Assembly: GCA_015200345.1 (NCBI GenBank)
Contig: CP054187.1
Span: 3,766,470 to 3,830,469 of the forward strand
Origin: Planctomycetia bacterium
GTDB taxonomy: Bacteria; Planctomycetota; Phycisphaerae; UBA1845; UTPLA1
Length of the DNA: 64,000 nt
Direction of reading: 5' to 3'
Both the position numbers and the translations under genes were made by a program. The first letter of the stretch is position 1; each line of letters begins with the position of its first letter. Below, piece after piece: positions 40,772 through 53,815 of the stretch. Under the pieces are notes generated by a model, which saw nothing but the letters and a program-made list of their open reading frames with translations, made no database searches and was not told where the DNA came from.

Positions 40772-42682
40772 ATGTGCGGCATTCTGGGCATTGTGACGTT
40801 TCGCGGTGAGCATCCGAGCGAGCGATCGTTTGATCGCGCGCTGGGGCAACTGGACCACCGCGGCCCCGATGATCGCGGGGCGCTGCACGAGACGCTCCCG
40901 TCGGGCGGGCGCATCTCGCTGGGCCAGACGCGCTTGAGCATCCTCGATCTGTCCCCGGCGGGGCATCAACCGATGGTCAGCGATCGCACCGGCACGGCGA
41001 TCGTTTTCAACGGCGAGGCCTACAACTTTCGGGAGGTCCGCGCCGACTTGCAGAGTGCCGGACTGTCGTTTCACAGCGAATGCGATACCGAGGTTCTTCT
41101 GGCGGCGTACGACGAACGTGCGGATCGATTCATTGAGCCGTTTCGCGGGATGTTCGCGATCGGGCTATGGGACCGCGGGCGAGACCGTCTGCTGCTGGTG
41201 CGCGATCGGCTGGGCATCAAGCCGCTCTATTACTACTGGGATGGTCGCGCGTTTGCATTTGCATCGGAGCTGACGGCCATCGCGGCGCTGCCGGGATTAA
41301 AACTTGACATATGTCAGGATGCGATGCGTCAATTCCTCTGGCGCGGGTTCATTCCGTACCCGTTGTCCATCTTCAAGCAAATCCACAAGCTTCCGGCCGG
41401 TTGCATGGTGCGGCTCGATTTGGCGAATCCGCGGCCTGACGTCGTCACATACTGGAATGCGCTGGATTATTACGCCGCACCGGGCCGCTACTCGAACCCG
41501 ACGGAAGCGGTGGACGCCATTGAAGCGGTGCTGCGAGAGTCCGTGAAGTTGCGTTTGATCAGCGACGTTCCGCTTGGGGCCTTTCTAAGCGGAGGGATCG
41601 ACTCTTCACTGGTCGTGTCGTTGATGCGGCAAGTGCATGGGGGGACGGTTCGGACCTTCTCGATCGGCTTTGATGAAGACCGATGGAATGAGGCGCCGGC
41701 GGCCAAACGCATCGCCGAGTATCTGGGAACCCAGCACGAAGAGATGTACATCTCGCGTGCGAACCTGCTTGAACAGGTTCGCACGGTGAGCCGGCATTAC
41801 GATGAACCGTTCGCGGATTCGTCGGCCATCCCGACGCTGGCGCTGGCGAAGTTGACGCGGCGGCATGTAACGGTTGCCCTGTCAGGCGACGGCGGGGATG
41901 AGCTGTTCTGGGGGTATGATCAGTACACCGCCAAATCGAACCGAGTGTTTCCGTGGGTTCGCAAGGTGCCGACGGCGCTGCGGAAGGTGGTTGGTGCGGG
42001 CTTGCGGGCCTTTCGAGGCAGTCCGCTGGAGCGCTGGGGGCATTTGATTGCGTTTGAAGATTTCGCCCAGTTCTATGCCCGAACGGATCTCTGGCATCCG
42101 TGGACATTTGCCGGCCTGCACCGGGCGCACGTCACCTTGAATCGGCAGCTGGAGATTGGTCGAGAGGTCGCTGCCCGATTGGGAGATCGAGATCGGGACC
42201 GTCACATGAGTGCGACCGACTTGAAGTGTTATCTCGTGGACGACATTCTCACGAAGGTGGATCGTGCCACGATGGCGGTCGCGCTGGAGGCGCGCGTGCC
42301 GATCCTGGATCACAAATTGGTCGAACTGGCGGCCGGGATTCCGTACTCGATCAAGAAACACGGGAACGAAAAGAAACACCTGCTCAAGGCGCTGCTTGAG
42401 CGGTACGTGCCGAGGTCGCTGTGGGATCGCCCCAAGATGGGTTTCGGCGTACCGTTGGTTCACTACTTCCGTGGGCCGCTGCGGGATTGGGCTCATGACG
42501 AGTTGTTCAGCGGCGGGCATTCCCTTCCGGAATGGCTGGACATGCGAATCGCGCGCGCCGTGTTGGAAGAACACGTGAGTGGGCGGCGTGACTGTGCGAG
42601 CTTGCTGTGGGCGTGTTTGCAGTTGGCAGGGTGGGATCGGCGGATGCGTGAGATTCGGCGCGGCGCAGAGGCGCCCTGCTGA
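40772..42682 (+). CDS. asnB: Asparagine synthetase-type amidotransferase (first of three)
   Basis: A 636-residue glutamine-hydrolysing synthetase. The N-terminal Ntn glutaminase begins MCGILGIVTF, so Cys2 is the nucleophile; LDHRGPDDRGAL and IVFNGEAYNFREVRADLQ follow. The synthetase half has the PP-loop PLGAFLSGGIDSSLVVSLMR, VALSGDGGDELFWGYDQY and VDRATMAVALEARVPILDHK. These enzymes activate a carboxylate with ATP and transfer ammonia. In polysaccharide loci, homologues such as WbpS amidate sugar uronic acids. Ends 68 bases before the uronate-epimerase-like gene, which fits such a role. Confidence 0.93.
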   Translation: MCGILGIVTFRGEHPSERSFDRALGQLDHRGPDDRGALHETLPSGGRISLGQTRLSILDLSPAGHQPMVSDRTGTAIVFNGEAYNFREVRADLQSAGLSFHSECDTEVLLAAYDERADRFIEPFRGMFAIGLWDRGRDRLLLVRDRLGIKPLYYYWDGRAFAFASELTAIAALPGLKLDICQDAMRQFLWRGFIPYPLSIFKQIHKLPAGCMVRLDLANPRPDVVTYWNALDYYAAPGRYSNPTEAVDAIEAVLRESVKLRLISDVPLGAFLSGGIDSSLVVSLMRQVHGGTVRTFSIGFDEDRWNEAPAAKRIAEYLGTQHEEMYISRANLLEQVRTVSRHYDEPFADSSAIPTLALAKLTRRHVTVALSGDGGDELFWGYDQYTAKSNRVFPWVRKVPTALRKVVGAGLRAFRGSPLERWGHLIAFEDFAQFYARTDLWHPWTFAGLHRAHVTLNRQLEIGREVAARLGDRDRDRHMSATDLKCYLVDDILTKVDRATMAVALEARVPILDHKLVELAAGIPYSIKKHGNEKKHLLKALLERYVPRSLWDRPKMGFGVPLVHYFRGPLRDWAHDELFSGGHSLPEWLDMRIARAVLEEHVSGRRDCASLLWACLQLAGWDRRMREIRRGAEAPC

Positions 42683-45144: not shown

Positions 45145-46497
45145 ATGAGCATCGGTAGCTTCACATATTCAGCGCCAACCGCCCAGACGTGGTCCGCAGA
45201 CGCTGTCCAGGGCACGATCCCGGTCGAACTGGATGAGCCGCCGGCGGTTCTCCGCCGGGTGGTTGAAGTTTTGGTTTACATTCCGGTCATCGTCAGCGCC
45301 TTCCTGGGTGTTTTGGGGCTTCAACAGATTCGGTTCTTTGGTGGTGGGGTGGCTTTTGCGTCGACCCTCCTGACGATCTTTACCGTGCTGCTTTCCGGGC
45401 ATCGTCCACCGCTCTCGGTCTGGTTTGGTATCATCATCTGGCTTTGCGCAAACCTTTCGCAGTCCATCGGAAACGGCCAGACGCCCGTGACGGGTCCCGG
45501 CTTGCCGATGCTGCTCTTTCACATTGGAACACTCCTTGGGACGTGGTACATCATCTTGAACCCGGCCGCTGAGCGGCGAATGTTTTTCTTCTATTCAGCG
45601 CTGATGGTGACGCTGGCGGTGATGGGTGGTCAATACATGCGCAGCCACGCATCGGTCGAGCGATTGGAACTGGAGGGCGTCGGCGGACTGATGGCCAATC
45701 CCAATTCCATCGGCTATATGACGGGTTTGTTCGGCGTGGCGATGCTGTTTCGGTCGTTGCGTGAGCGGGCGGTGCTGAGGCCGGTCTTGTGGATATTGAC
45801 TCTTGTAATGTTTGTCCTGCTGATGCGGACGGTTTCGCGCACGGCCCTGGTCTTGTTCGCGGTTGGCGTCATGGCCTTTCTTGTCACCGTCATGGCGGGG
45901 CGCGGGATGCGCGTCAGCGGGTTGATTTTCCTTTGCGTGGTGGTGCTGTTCGCTTCGCAGTTTGCTTATCTCGTCGCCGATCAGCTGATTTACTACCAGA
46001 AGCGCGTCCGGGTGGATACGGAAGGCCGTCTGGGGGTTTTTTCGTTGGCGACCCTGACCGATTTCATGAATACTTTTGTCTTCGGGCGAGGCCCGGACCG
46101 GGCGATCGCCAGCGCCACCGGCATCACCCCGCATAATACATTTATCTATATGCACCTCGCGTTCGGCGGCATCACGGCGTACCCCTACCTGCTCTGGTTG
46201 ACCATCCTGGCGGTGCGAATTCTCCGCATGCTGAAATCGCCGGATCTCCCTCTCGATATCAAGTCATTTGTCGTAGCGATTTATCTCATGGCGATCGGCG
46301 GCGAAGGCACCAACAACATCAATTTCACGCTCTACTCCAGCGTGTACGCATGGGCCATCATCGAGAAATACACGGCGATGTACAGCCGCCGCGCCATGGA
46401 GCAACGTGCCGCCGCGCAGGGGTGGTTCCCTCAATCGAGCGATCCCGGCGCCATGGACTTCCATCCAGTGCGTGGTCGTCGCGCTCGTGCCCTGTGA
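45145..46497 (+). CDS. O-antigen polymerase/ligase-like membrane protein (Wzy-like)
   Basis: A 450-residue protein with about 11-12 membrane helices (VLVYIPVIVSAFLGVLGLQQ, PLSVWFGIIIWLCANLSQSI, VLWILTLVMFVLLMRTVSRT, LVLFAVGVMAFLVTVMAGRG). It has a larger loop late in the chain, around LTDFMNTFVFGRGPDRAIAS and ITPHNTFIYMHLAFGGITAY, where the H-N-x-x-x motif HNTFIY corresponds to that of the Wzy_C/O-antigen ligase family. It likely joins repeat units in the periplasm after flipping. The 210 bases before it contain no gene. Confidence 0.82.
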   Translation: MSIGSFTYSAPTAQTWSADAVQGTIPVELDEPPAVLRRVVEVLVYIPVIVSAFLGVLGLQQIRFFGGGVAFASTLLTIFTVLLSGHRPPLSVWFGIIIWLCANLSQSIGNGQTPVTGPGLPMLLFHIGTLLGTWYIILNPAAERRMFFFYSALMVTLAVMGGQYMRSHASVERLELEGVGGLMANPNSIGYMTGLFGVAMLFRSLRERAVLRPVLWILTLVMFVLLMRTVSRTALVLFAVGVMAFLVTVMAGRGMRVSGLIFLCVVVLFASQFAYLVADQLIYYQKRVRVDTEGRLGVFSLATLTDFMNTFVFGRGPDRAIASATGITPHNTFIYMHLAFGGITAYPYLLWLTILAVRILRMLKSPDLPLDIKSFVVAIYLMAIGGEGTNNINFTLYSSVYAWAIIEKYTAMYSRRAMEQRAAAQGWFPQSSDPGAMDFHPVRGRRARAL

Positions 46498-46517
46498 TCG
46501 GTTTTGCGCGCTCCTTC

Positions 46518-47690
46518 ATGAAAGTCGTCATCTTAATCGACTCCTTGATTCGCGGCGGTGCGGAACGCCAGGCGCTTCTGACGCTGAAGGAGTTGGCGCA
46601 TCGCGGGATCGATGCCCGGCTGATTCGGTATTACGAATCACCCGGCGGATACGACTGGCCCGCGGACCTGGACGCGCGCGTGGTCCTCATGGAGAAGGCG
46701 GGACGCACGCTTCGTTTCATGTGGCGGCTTTGCCGTTACCTCCGGCGCGAACAGATCGACGTGGTTCACGGCTTCAAGGAGGTGCCCGGCATTTATGCCT
46801 GCGTCTGCGGATGGCTGACCGGCGTGCCAGTTCGAATTGTTGGTCACCGCACGCAATCGCTCCCGGGAGGAATGATCCGGAGAGTCTACCGATGGATCCG
46901 GTATTTTGCGACAGCTTGGATTGGCAATACGAAGGCGGTTGTCGATGTTTTGCGACACGAGTTAGGCGTGCCGGCCGAGCGCTTGTTCGTGGTGCCCAAC
47001 GGGCTTGAAACGGATCGATTTCAGCCTTCCGATCAATTGCGTGCATCCGTCCGCGGACGATTGGGCATTGCGCCCGATGCCGGTGTTGTCACGATGGTTG
47101 CGGTCCTGCGCAAGGGGAAGAACCACCGTATGTTTGTGCGAATGGCTGCGCGCGTTCGGGATCGTAAACCGAACGCGGTCTTTCTCATTGTGGGCGATTC
47201 GGATCCCGCCGAGCCGGCCTGTTTGAGTGAGGTCGAAGCCGAAGTTCGAAGCGCGGGGCTGGAGGGGTCGATTCGATTCCTGGGGATGCGAGCGGATGTC
47301 CCGGATATCCTCTGTGCGACCGATGTCTCCGTTCTGACAACCAATTTCGAAGGAATGTCCAACGCCCTTCTGGAATCGATGGCGGCAGGCGTCAGCATCG
47401 TCTCGACGGATTACGTCGGAGCGCGCGAACTGGTGGTGGACGGGGATCAGGGATTTCTCGTGCCGCTGAACGACGACCAGGCAATGGCAGATCGCGTTAT
47501 TCGATTGCTGGATGATCCGGGCCTTCGATCCCGGATGGGGCGGGCCGGTGCGGACCGCGTGAAGCGGGAGTTCAGCGCACAAGTCATGGGGGAACGGCTG
47601 GAAGCCATTTACACGCGGTTGGCATCGGGACGTGGAGCCTGGTCGGCTCGGGCGTCGGATGGCGGGTCGGCGACCGTCGCGAAGCATTGA
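46518..47690 (+). CDS. GT4-family glycosyltransferase
   Basis: A 390-residue GT-B enzyme: MKVVILIDSLIRGGAERQAL (the GGAE loop), VVHGFKEVPGIYACVCGW, IGNTKAVVDVLRHELGVPAE, VPNGLETDRFQPSDQLRA in the linker, and a complete EX7E motif in NFEGMSNALLESMAAGVSIV. The ATG at 46518 is chosen because the GT4 fold begins there; the frame is open from 46350 but overlaps the polymerase gene by 148 bases. The closing region has Ala/Ser-rich residues. Donor and acceptor sugars are unknown. Confidence 0.9.
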   Translation: MKVVILIDSLIRGGAERQALLTLKELAHRGIDARLIRYYESPGGYDWPADLDARVVLMEKAGRTLRFMWRLCRYLRREQIDVVHGFKEVPGIYACVCGWLTGVPVRIVGHRTQSLPGGMIRRVYRWIRYFATAWIGNTKAVVDVLRHELGVPAERLFVVPNGLETDRFQPSDQLRASVRGRLGIAPDAGVVTMVAVLRKGKNHRMFVRMAARVRDRKPNAVFLIVGDSDPAEPACLSEVEAEVRSAGLEGSIRFLGMRADVPDILCATDVSVLTTNFEGMSNALLESMAAGVSIVSTDYVGARELVVDGDQGFLVPLNDDQAMADRVIRLLDDPGLRSRMGRAGADRVKREFSAQVMGERLEAIYTRLASGRGAWSARASDGGSATVAKH

Positions 47691-47702
47691 TATGGTTGTT
47701 TC

Positions 47703-47717
47703 GGGAGCAGTCTGATT
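47703..47717 (+). promoter_or_regulatory. Ribosome-binding site and ATT initiation codon of the second asnB
   Basis: GGGAG at 47703-47707 is 7 bases before ATT (47715-47717). ATT is the only codon in this frame that places Cys at position 2, as the enzyme needs. CTG at 47712 would put one extra residue before the Cys. Confidence 0.6.
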
Positions 47718-49631
47718 TGCGGCATCTGCGGCATTGTTGACCTGGCGTCGCCTGTTGCGTCGGCAGACGTCGAGCGGATGGTGGCGTCGATCCGTCACCG
47801 CGGGCCGGACGACTGCGGTGTCGTTGCGCGCGGTCCGGTCGGGCTGGGGCACGCGCGATTAAGCATCATCGACCTGTCCCCCACCGGGCGGCAGCCGATG
47901 TCGACGCCCGATGATCGCTATACGATTGTATTTAACGGAGAAGTGTACAATTTTCCGTCGATGCGCCGGCGACTGGAGGAGCGAGGCGTCGCCTTTCGCG
48001 GCACGTCGGACACCGAAGTGGTGTTGCACGCGTTCGCCGAATGGGGTGCCGATGCATTCGCGCAGTTCAATGGAATGTTCGCACTGGCGATCTGGGACGC
48101 GACCGCAGAGCGGCTCACCCTCGCCCGAGACCGATTCGGCATCAAACCGCTGTATCTGCATCAGGACGTTCGAACGCTGGCATTCGGCTCGGAGATGAAG
48201 GCCCTGCTGTGCAGCGACCGGATCGCACGGCGGATGAACTGGGCAGCGCTTCACGAATACCTCTATTACGGATACCCCATCGGCTCGAACACGTTTTATC
48301 AGGGTATCCGCGAACTGTCGCCCGGTTCCTATGCGACGTTTGATGCCGCCGGATTAAGGGAGACACGTTACTGGCATCTCGAGCGAACACCGGCGGTGCG
48401 GGATGCGTTCCAACCAGCCGCGCGCCGCGTGGCGGACTTGCTGGACAAGGCGGTTCAGTCTCATCTGATCAGCGATGTGCCGGTGGGCGTGTTTCTTAGC
48501 GGCGGAGTGGATTCGTCCGCCATTACGGCGCTGGCCAGTCGACACTATTCAGGGCGGCTCCAGACGTATTCCGCGAGTTTTGATTTTGACAAGGGAGTGG
48601 ACGAGCGACCCAAGGCGCGCTTGATCGCGCAGCGTTTCGACACGGACCATCACGAGGTTCGCGTGGAGGGGCGGAGGATGCCCGACGTGATCGAGACGCT
48701 GGTGCGCTGCCACGATGAACCGTTCGGCGATGCTGCGGACATCCCGTTGTTCCTGTTGTGCGAGCAGCTTCGCGGCAGTGTGAAAGTCATCTTGCAGGGC
48801 GATGGCGGTGATGAAATTTTTGCCGGGTACCGCCGATACAACGTCTTATCGTTCAACCCGCTCTGGCAGGCCATGGCTGCGTTTCGCGGAATGCTGAAGC
48901 TGCTGCCGCGCGGGCCGCTGCATCAACGGGCGACGCGGTTCTTCCGGGCGATCGGCCATTCAGATCCTGCGTTGCAGATGGCGCTGTACCTGACGCAGGA
49001 AGATTTCCTCGATCCGCCGACGCGACTCTTCAGTCCAGACGCGCAGCAACAGCTTGCCTTGCACGATCCGTTTGCTGCATATCACGAGGCCTACAGCCGG
49101 CTGAAGGACTTCGATACCGTTCAGCGAGCACTTTATACCGATTGCCTCATCCTGCTGCCGGACATGTTTCTTGAGAAAGTAGACAAATCCACGATGGCGC
49201 ACGGCATCGAGGTGCGCGTGCCGTTTCTGGACGCGAACTTAACGGACTACGCGCTGGGGCTGCCGTCCGGGATCAAAGTGAAATACGGCCAGAAGAAACG
49301 AATCCTCCGAGCGGCTTTGCGCGGCATCGTTCCGGACGAAATTCTCGACGCACCCAAGGAAGGCTTCGGCGTTCCTTATCAATACTGGCTCCGCGATTCG
49401 CTGGCGGGCTATCTGCGATCGGTGTTGCTGGATGATTCGATTCATCAATGGGGCATTTTTGATCGCGCCGCGCTGGAACGCACGATTCAGGAGCATACCT
49501 CCGGTCAGCGCAACCACGGCTTTTTGCTCTGGAAGCTGCTGAATCTCGGGCTGTGGTATTGCATGTATCTTCAAGGCCGCACCGAACCTGATTCGGTGCG
49601 CTCAACGGCGGTCACCGCCACCCGCATATGA
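47715..49631 (+). CDS. asnB: Asparagine synthetase-type amidotransferase (second), ATT start
   Basis: A 638-residue class II amidotransferase. The frame reads Ile/Met-CGICGIVDLASPV from the ATT at 47715, then SIRHRGPDDCGVVARGPV and IVFNGEVYNFPSMRRRLEE. Using the first ATG (47778) would delete the catalytic Cys and the first strand, so a rare ATT start is inferred. The PP-loop is VGVFLSGGVDSSAITALAS, with LQGDGGDEIFAGYRRYN and VDKSTMAHGIEVRVPFLDAN later. It overlaps the next glycosyltransferase by 4 bases. The product is probably an amidated sugar acid or an amidated peptide-like group; free asparagine is less likely with three copies. Confidence 0.85.
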   Translation: MCGICGIVDLASPVASADVERMVASIRHRGPDDCGVVARGPVGLGHARLSIIDLSPTGRQPMSTPDDRYTIVFNGEVYNFPSMRRRLEERGVAFRGTSDTEVVLHAFAEWGADAFAQFNGMFALAIWDATAERLTLARDRFGIKPLYLHQDVRTLAFGSEMKALLCSDRIARRMNWAALHEYLYYGYPIGSNTFYQGIRELSPGSYATFDAAGLRETRYWHLERTPAVRDAFQPAARRVADLLDKAVQSHLISDVPVGVFLSGGVDSSAITALASRHYSGRLQTYSASFDFDKGVDERPKARLIAQRFDTDHHEVRVEGRRMPDVIETLVRCHDEPFGDAADIPLFLLCEQLRGSVKVILQGDGGDEIFAGYRRYNVLSFNPLWQAMAAFRGMLKLLPRGPLHQRATRFFRAIGHSDPALQMALYLTQEDFLDPPTRLFSPDAQQQLALHDPFAAYHEAYSRLKDFDTVQRALYTDCLILLPDMFLEKVDKSTMAHGIEVRVPFLDANLTDYALGLPSGIKVKYGQKKRILRAALRGIVPDEILDAPKEGFGVPYQYWLRDSLAGYLRSVLLDDSIHQWGIFDRAALERTIQEHTSGQRNHGFLLWKLLNLGLWYCMYLQGRTEPDSVRSTAVTATRI

Positions 49632-50774: not shown

Positions 50775-52718
50775 ATGTGCGGCATCTGCGGATATGTTGG
50801 CGATCATCGTCCCGAGCTGCTGGAGCCGATGTGCAACGCCATGCGCCATCGGGGACCGGATGATTCCGGCATGTGGCATGATGCCGCGGCGCGCGTGGGT
50901 CTGGGCCATCGCCGGCTATCGATCATTGATCTTAGTCCGGCGGGGCACCAGCCGATGGCGACGCCGGACGGGCGCATTCAGATCGTCTTCAACGGCGAGA
51001 TCTACAATTTCGAGGAACATCGCGAGCGAATGATGGCGGCGGGTCGAACGTTTCGCGGGCACAGCGATACGGAAGTGTTGCTCTATCTGTACGAGGAAAT
51101 GGGTGCGGATTTCGTGCACGCGCTCAACGGCATCTTCGCGCTGGCGATCTGGGATGCGCGCGATCGGTCGCTGCTCCTGGCGCGCGACCACGCCGGCATC
51201 AAGCCGCTCTATTACTGGCTGGACGGCGAGCGGTTGTTCTTCGCGTCGGAGATCAAGGCACTGCTTCGCGCGCCGGGTGTGCCACGCGAACTTAACCTTG
51301 ATCGCCTGCCGGATTACCTGACGTTCCTGTGGGTGCCGGGCGAGGAGACCATGCTCAAGGCGGTCCGCAAGCTTGAGCCGGGCCATGCGATGCGATGGCG
51401 TGACGGGCGGGTGCAATCGTGGAGGTGGTTCTCGCTAAGGTATGAGCCGGACGACGGACCGTGCGAGTCGGACTGGATCGACCAGGTGCATGACACATTT
51501 ATGGCAGCTACGCGCCGGCAGATGATGTCGGACGTGCCGCTGGGCGCGCTGCTCTCGGGAGGCACGGATTCGACCGCCATCGCGGCGTGCATGAGGCATT
51601 CCTATCCCGACCGCGAGATCCGCTGCTACACGTTTGAGACGCCCTCGGAGGACATGGCACGCGATCAGTTCGAGGCCGATCATCCCTTCGCCGTGCGCGT
51701 CGCGAAGCACCTGAATATCACGCTGCGAAGCTGCGTGCTTCGCCCAAACGTGATTGAATTGCTACCGAAAATGGTTTATCACAACGATGAGCCGGACGCC
51801 GACCCGACGGTGTTCCCGTCGTACCTGCTCTCGAAAATGGCACGAGATGACGGCACGACGGTGCTGCTGTCGGGCATGGGTGGCGACGAGATGTTCTTTG
51901 GCTATCGGAGCCATCAGGCGCTGCGACGGCTGGAGCAATTCGGTTGGATTCCGCGGTGGCTGCTGGCGCCGGCGCTGGCGTCGGCGTGCGGCGCGGCATC
52001 AGCCATGATGGGGGCGCAGAGCGCGCTGCCCCGACGGCTGCGAAAGTTTCGCAAGGCGTTGCTCGGCGACGGCGTGGAGCGGTTCGAGGCGCTTTCGGAC
52101 TGGTCCAGCGCGGCGACGCGTGAACGATTGTTTGGCCCGGCGTTGACAACCGCGGCGGCGAATGGCGGCGCATCGCGGGGACGCTCGGCGATTCTCAAGT
52201 ATTACAACGAATTCGCCGGTCGCGGCGAACTGAACCGGCGCTCACACATTTTGATCCAGACGTTCCTCGCGGCACACAATTTCATGTACACGGACAAGTC
52301 GAGCATGGCGACCTCGGTGGAGGTTCGCGTGCCGTTTCTCGACGTGGAGTTGATGCGGTTGTGCGCCCGCATCCCCGAGCGACACAAGCTCAAGGGCATG
52401 ACGACAAAGTACTTGCTCAAAGAAGCCATGGCGCGCTACATCCCGCGCGATATTCTCTATCGCAGCAAGACCGGTTTCGGCCCGCCGCTGCGAAAATGGA
52501 TGGCCGTCGATTTCAGCGGCATCACGAACGATCTGCTGGGCGAGCGCGTGCTGCGCCGGCGCGGACTTTTTGATCCCGCCGCCGTTGCGGCCGTCATCCG
52601 AGAGAACGCGGCCAACACGGCCGACCACGCATACCTGTTGTTTGCGCTGCTTACGCTGGAAGTATGGATGCAGACATTCATCGACCGCCCCGGCGAGGAA
52701 GTGACGCTCTCCGCGTGA
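50775..52718 (+). CDS. asnB: Asparagine synthetase-type amidotransferase (third)
   Basis: A 647-residue enzyme beginning MCGICGYVGDH with Cys2, then MRHRGPDDSGMWHDA and IVFNGEIYNFEEHRERMMA. The synthetase domain has LGALLSGGTDSTAIAACMR, VLLSGMGGDEMFFGYRSHQ (Met for the usual Asp in SGDGGDE) and KSSMATSVEVRVPFLDVELM. The change in the second motif may affect ATP handling. The stop of the glycosyltransferase is one base before the ATG (TAATATG). Sequence differs clearly from the two other copies, so these are not recent duplicates. Confidence 0.92.
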   Translation: MCGICGYVGDHRPELLEPMCNAMRHRGPDDSGMWHDAAARVGLGHRRLSIIDLSPAGHQPMATPDGRIQIVFNGEIYNFEEHRERMMAAGRTFRGHSDTEVLLYLYEEMGADFVHALNGIFALAIWDARDRSLLLARDHAGIKPLYYWLDGERLFFASEIKALLRAPGVPRELNLDRLPDYLTFLWVPGEETMLKAVRKLEPGHAMRWRDGRVQSWRWFSLRYEPDDGPCESDWIDQVHDTFMAATRRQMMSDVPLGALLSGGTDSTAIAACMRHSYPDREIRCYTFETPSEDMARDQFEADHPFAVRVAKHLNITLRSCVLRPNVIELLPKMVYHNDEPDADPTVFPSYLLSKMARDDGTTVLLSGMGGDEMFFGYRSHQALRRLEQFGWIPRWLLAPALASACGAASAMMGAQSALPRRLRKFRKALLGDGVERFEALSDWSSAATRERLFGPALTTAAANGGASRGRSAILKYYNEFAGRGELNRRSHILIQTFLAAHNFMYTDKSSMATSVEVRVPFLDVELMRLCARIPERHKLKGMTTKYLLKEAMARYIPRDILYRSKTGFGPPLRKWMAVDFSGITNDLLGERVLRRRGLFDPAAVAAVIRENAANTADHAYLLFALLTLEVWMQTFIDRPGEEVTLSA

Positions 52719-52732
52719 GATCCAATTCTCCC

Positions 52733-53815
52733 ATGGTTGAGCCGGCCGCGAACATGCCTGCCGTGACCATGCGGACCCGCCGGTATACGGCCGGCCGTGC
52801 GCTGCGCGCGATGCGTGATGGGACGCTGTACCTCGGCCGCAATTATGAGATCCATCGCTCCGATGATGACGGCGCGACGTGGGTCTTCGTGACACGGATG
52901 CCCTCGGCAGGGATTCGTCGATGGGCGGGTTGGTCGCGCCTGGCATCGCGGCTGCTGCGGCATGAAGTGCGCGCGATGAATGTGACGCCGGGTGGTACGG
53001 TGGTGGCCTCGAATCGCGAGTGGGTGTATTACGCCGCGCCGGGCGAGCCGCTGATGCGCCGCGCCAAGGTGGACGCCGGGTCGCAGCCGCTGGCGCCGCC
53101 GATGACGATGACGGTTGGGCCGGATGGCCGCGTTTTGTGGGGCGAGTACGATTCGACGACGAGGCACGGCAAGCCGGTGCGCCTGTTTGCGTCAGAGGAC
53201 GGCGGGAGTAGCTACGAAATCGCTCGCGTGTTCGAGGGCGGCAGCATTCTTCACCTGCACAACATCGTGTGGGACACGGGTCGCGGGCACTATTGGGTGT
53301 TGGCCGGCGATCACGACGATGAACCTGGCATCGGCGTGCTCTCCGCGGATTTGAAATCGTTCGACTGGTTGGTGAAGGGCAGGCAGTTGTACCGTGCGGT
53401 CGAAGTGTTCGACGGCGGCGACCGGCTAATTTATATCATGGATTCCGAGAAAGAGCGCAATTACCTCGTTCATCTCGACAAATCCTCGGGAAAGGCCGAG
53501 ACGAGCGCGGAGTTCGAGGGCAGTTGCATTTACGCATGTCGATTCGGCAAATGGCTGACCTTCACCACGACGGTGGAACCGTCAAAAGTTAATTCAGCGC
53601 GGCAGGCTTCGCTGTACGTCTCGCGCGATGGCGCGACCTGGTCGCAGGTCCTCCGTGCGGAGAAGGACGGCTGGCACCCCGTCTATTTCCAGTATGGCTC
53701 GATCATCCTGCCGCGCGGCGAAAGCGATCGTGACACGATCTTTTTCAGTGGGCAGGCCGTGCGAGAGTGGGACGGCCGCGCCGCAACGGCGACGCTGGAG
53801 GCCCGCGGCGCATGA
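52733..53815 (+). CDS. Asp-box (BNR/sialidase-like) repeat protein
   Basis: A 360-residue beta-propeller protein with Asp-box motifs (Ser-x-Asp-x-Gly-x-x-Trp): IHRSDDDGATWVFV, LFASEDGGSSYEIA and LYVSRDGATWSQVL. No signal peptide is visible and no sialidase Arg triad was identified, so it is probably a binding or structural propeller, acting on glycan in the cytoplasm or exported another way. ATG at 52733 is preferred; the frame begins at 52664 within the third asnB. It overlaps the heparinase gene by 4 bases, so the two are probably made together. Confidence 0.75.
   Translation: MVEPAANMPAVTMRTRRYTAGRALRAMRDGTLYLGRNYEIHRSDDDGATWVFVTRMPSAGIRRWAGWSRLASRLLRHEVRAMNVTPGGTVVASNREWVYYAAPGEPLMRRAKVDAGSQPLAPPMTMTVGPDGRVLWGEYDSTTRHGKPVRLFASEDGGSSYEIARVFEGGSILHLHNIVWDTGRGHYWVLAGDHDDEPGIGVLSADLKSFDWLVKGRQLYRAVEVFDGGDRLIYIMDSEKERNYLVHLDKSSGKAETSAEFEGSCIYACRFGKWLTFTTTVEPSKVNSARQASLYVSRDGATWSQVLRAEKDGWHPVYFQYGSIILPRGESDRDTIFFSGQAVREWDGRAATATLEARGA

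Follow-up and report, generated by a model that had tools for sequence, protein, structure and literature searches.

A putative AUU start codon in an asparagine synthase-type amidotransferase gene of a planctomycete polysaccharide cluster

Which codon starts asnB2, the second of three asnB-like genes found in a polysaccharide cluster of a Planctomycetia bacterium (contig CP054187.1), when the codon directly before that of its catalytic cysteine is ATT? The cluster lies within the window, by which we mean the whole stretch of 64,000 nucleotides that was analysed, and the features that bear on the question are collected in Table 1. To our knowledge, AUU starts have been described for few bacterial genes. 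The comparisons set out below make it very likely that asnB2 belongs with them, with genuine initiation at AUU that would be guided by a Shine-Dalgarno (SD) sequence and would use formylmethionine, the methionine then being removed to expose the cysteine.

Table 1. Features of asnB2 and its neighbours, in window coordinates (L001, asnB2 of the window; L008, its orthologue in the sister species; L009, its orthologue from another genus)
Feature	Position	Strand	Remarks
asnB1 paralogue	40772..42682	+	ATG start
Upstream family-4 glycosyltransferase gene	46518..47690	+	likely start ATG 46518; stop 24 nt before the ATT, in frame with asnB2
SD-like GGGAG, 7 nt before the ATT	47703..47707	+	CGGGAG at the same spacing in L008; 16S 3' end GGATCACCTCCTTTCT
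asnB2 putative ATT start codon	47715..47717	+	from sequence; same codon in L008 and L009
Catalytic Cys codon TGC (N-terminal after Met removal)	47718..47720	+	aligns with Cys2 of 7ylz
asnB2, class II (Cys-dependent) asparagine-synthase-type amidotransferase	47718..49631	+	637 codons after the start, plus stop; Pfam PF00733, PF13537, PF13522; TIGR01536
First in-frame ATG of asnB2	47778..47780	+	20 codons past the Cys; its use would lose the catalytic Cys
asnB3 paralogue	50775..52718	+	ATG start

By family score and domain content, the predicted product of asnB2 is an asparagine-synthase-type class II amidotransferase. It reaches 473.6 bits against TIGR01536, above the curated cut-off of 267.1; its glutaminase (PF13537/PF13522) and synthetase (PF00733) domains are complete, with matches of near full length, and the SGGVDSS loop is found. 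Against TIGR03108, which describes the XrtA/PEP-CTERM amidotransferase, it scores 499.5 bits, below the cut-off of 816.9, and it is therefore not a member of that equivalog. Like the enzymes of TIGR01536 and the related TIGR03108, asnB2 combines GATase and Asn_synthase domains, lies in a polysaccharide cluster and carries its cysteine right after the start, while differing from them in that the start codon would be ATT. The nucleophilic cysteine of the TIGR01536 type directly follows the start residue only if the ATT is indeed the start.

The start region of the window gene reads TGA TAT GGT TGT TTC GGG AGC AGT CTG ATT TGC GGC ATC TGC GGC ATT GTT GAC, where the TGA (47688-47690), the upstream in-frame stop, is also the stop of the glycosyltransferase gene, and translation from the TGC codon gives CGICGIVD. 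Between this TGA and the ATG at 47778, ATG, GTG and TTG are absent from the asnB2 frame; the sole other near-cognate codon there is CTG at 47712, directly before the ATT, which would place the cysteine at position 3. The preliminary description had taken the ATT for the only codon that puts the cysteine at position 2, had seen GGGAG 7 bases ahead of it, and had noted that use of the first ATG would drop the catalytic residue; all of this was borne out, and what it had passed over was the CTG. The region gave no RNA family match of note and no special local RNA fold, its folding being unremarkable. A seven-codon mini-ORF (ATG GTT GTT TCG GGA GCA GTC TGA, 47693-47716) overlaps the ATT in the form TGATT; it has no counterpart in the sister species.

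Orthologues of asnB2 were found in 7 of the 17 genomes of the family. The sister species (87% identity) reads ATT|TGC at the same place, the orthologue from another genus (62% identity) also has ATT before the cysteine, and a family-wide search for ATT followed by CGICGI matched exactly these two and the window gene. A search of close relatives had been proposed in the preliminary description, together with the thought that the T at 47717 might be a mistake in the assembly where a true ATG should stand. A single wrong base, from sequencing or assembly, would suffice for that, but the two further genomes, one of them of a different genus, have the same codon, and the assembly that contains the window consists of one contig. 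Since independent related genomes carry the ATT, a base-call error is excluded, and this explanation retains practically no probability.

The sister species is informative in a second way. Its codons from the in-frame TGA to the cysteine are GCC ATC CCC ATC GCA TTA AAT TCC GGG AGA CCT GCC ATT, with no ATG, GTG, TTG or CTG among them. The SD sequences of the two species (TTTCGGGAG/TTCCGGGAG) keep identical spacing, in L008 as CGGGAG 7 nt before the ATT, within stop-to-ATT spacers that have otherwise diverged and are 24 and 36 nt long. These data bear on initiation at CTG 47712, which would yield Met-Ile-Cys with both residues later removed. That codon is near-cognate, in frame, directly before the ATT and 4 nt from GGGAG, but its place is taken by GCC in L008 and ACT in L009; moreover, methionine aminopeptidase takes off one residue, not two. 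Because the sister species lacks the CTG while the SD is kept at the same spacing in a diverged spacer, we regard a CTG start as very unlikely. The SD of L009 is weak (GGAA), and 30 codons ahead of its ATT, still inside the last part of the upstream gene, there is an in-frame TTG.

Initiation further downstream, at the ATG at 47778, would produce a protein that lacks the cysteine and depends on ammonia. It is the first usual start codon in frame, but the 20 codons that precede it encode the N-terminal strand of the family and are conserved as protein, with changes that are mostly synonymous, and the cysteine is retained in all seven orthologues. Between L001 and L008, codons 1-20 gave pN 0.068 and pS 0.379, a small sample of 20 codons, and the remainder of the gene gave pN 0.076 and pS 0.534. 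This purifying selection argues that the codons before the ATG are translated, and there is little probability left for a start at that ATG. A fusion made by read-through or frameshifting from the glycosyltransferase gene, then processed to the cysteine, could draw on the fact that the upstream stop is in the asnB2 frame in L001, L008 and L012; L009, L010, L011 and L013 lack this frame relation, and the unremarkable local RNA folding also speaks against it, so that such processing seems extremely improbable. Initiation at the ATT is strongly supported by its occurrence in three species, by the want of a usable alternative in L008 and by the selection seen before the first ATG. As far as can be read from sequence, asnB2 thus appears to combine what marks an AUU-initiated gene, namely a sole credible start in frame, an SD and conservation in relatives.

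The other four orthologues start with ATG (L010, L012 and L013) or GTG (L011), from which it follows that the enzyme can do without the ATT. In a maximum-likelihood tree L001 and L008 were joined, and L009 grouped with the ATG/GTG orthologues (support 90/87). One origin of the ATT with a later change takes two steps, as do two separate origins.

How rare such a start is was seen from a survey of the order. Among 91 Cys-anchored homologues, comprising 31 loci with the cysteine at the match start and 60 more, the codon before the cysteine was ATG in 78, GTG in 10 and ATT in three, all three ATT starts being those of L001, L008 and L009. The subset of 31 loci had 23 ATG, 5 GTG and 3 ATT; the 60 had 54 ATG, 5 GTG and one apparent TCA (L241), which proved to be an alignment shift with an ATG two codons later. 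ATT was thus found in 0 of the 84 non-orthologous homologues sampled, and the chance that three ATT starts in 91 genes would all fall among the seven orthologues is about 3e-4 (35/121,485, calculated by hand and ignoring relatedness). Pattern searches of the order (114 genomes) and the phylum (392 genomes), with matches translated, gave no further ATT-started asnB; the other ATT matches were chance occurrences, none similar to asnB, and candidates with an ATC start had translations that were not asnB. The one true asnB among the contig pattern-scan matches listed (L132) has ATG TGT GGC just upstream and so a normal start. A published AUU-started asnB was not found in a literature search. Class II amidotransferases offer a natural probe for unannotated rare starts, since their cysteine has to come immediately after the start codon; applied to this order, the probe turned up three rare starts among 91 genes, each of them in the same orthologue group.

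The initiation machinery of these genomes looks ordinary. The anti-SD is normal (CACCTCCTTTCT), with the usual CCTCC at the 16S 3' end, and each of the three genomes with the ATT has a single tRNA-Met(cat) bearing the initiator GGG/CCC stem; the search pattern used found no variant initiator tRNA in them. All seven orthologue genomes (L165, L166, L167 and four others) have an ATT just before the conserved N-terminus of infC, at most 14 codons from an in-frame stop, and it lies behind GGAAGG in the three inspected closely. An ATG stands two codons before this ATT in L168 and a TTG three codons after it in G000 and G001, which makes the ATT the likely but not the sole conceivable start there. 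From sequence, ATT thus appears to be the start of infC in these genomes.

In the mechanism proposed for asnB2, the 30S subunit would bind the mRNA at GGGAG, formylmethionine would be set at the AUU by the ordinary CAU initiator tRNA, and loss of the formyl group and the methionine would expose the catalytic cysteine, as in other class II amidotransferases. Part of the initiation may come from ribosomes that finish translating the glycosyltransferase gene, whose stop lies 24 nt upstream. Such coupling of asnB2 to the upstream gene is possible at that distance, but in E. coli re-initiation declines with distance and is at background level at 40 nt (PMC2268962).

The AUU probably gives low expression of asnB2, which would keep its synthesis below that of the ATG-started paralogues of the cluster, and a rise in its level when IF3 is scarce is plausible; both expectations follow from the behaviour of published AUU and AUA starts. 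IF3 discriminates against the AUU start of its own gene (PMC9410913) and, more broadly, against non-canonical starts (PMC2268962). Reporters with the tested non-canonical starts (AUU, AUA) gave about 10% of AUG output in S. aureus in poor medium, and an AUU start with a Ribo-Ret peak was reported for cvfC1 (PMC13009471). Together with the apparent ATT start of infC in the same genomes, this published behaviour speaks for a possible tuning of asnB2 by IF3 level, as the preliminary description had suggested. A bolder view, that selection keeps the ATT and that asnB2, limited by start-codon discrimination, tracks IF3 activity along with infC in a small IF3 regulon that extends beyond infC, strikes us as doubtful.

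Precedents for an AUU start include infC and pcnB of E. coli (PMC9410913). As in these genes, S. aureus cvfC1 and the AUA-started ccpN, the AUU of asnB2 is in frame at the start of the gene, behind an SD and conserved in relatives. Lower expression has been reported for the known AUU/AUA-start genes (PMC13009471, PMC9410913) and would be expected for asnB2. It differs from them in being an amidotransferase gene of a polysaccharide cluster whose start is pinned by a catalytic cysteine, and in that its orthologues outside the three species have ATG or GTG. We consider asnB2, a metabolic gene with this start in three species, a sound if modest addition to the few AUU-started bacterial genes on record. 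Gene finders limited to ATG, GTG and TTG would start it past its catalytic cysteine.

Within the cluster, asnB2 is flanked by two glycosyltransferase genes, and the order glycosyltransferase-asnB2 is conserved throughout the seven orthologue genomes. The open reading frame of the upstream glycosyltransferase is over-long at its 5' end (46350-46518); the ATG at 46518 is its likely start because alignments with homologues mostly begin only at about residue 57 of the longer frame. Flippase-like, polymerase-like, epimerase and heparinase-like genes are also present, the first three labels being our own reading of the cluster; the polymerase-like gene had no Pfam match. The asnB paralogues of the genome, in the cluster and elsewhere, have ATG starts. 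No orthologue of asnB3 was found in the regions retrieved from G015 and G013. This gene is 95% identical to the copy in the sister species, compared with 70-87% for most neighbouring genes, and in both species its end is overlapped in another frame, by 55 nt in the window, by an open reading frame (52664-53815) with no Pfam match.
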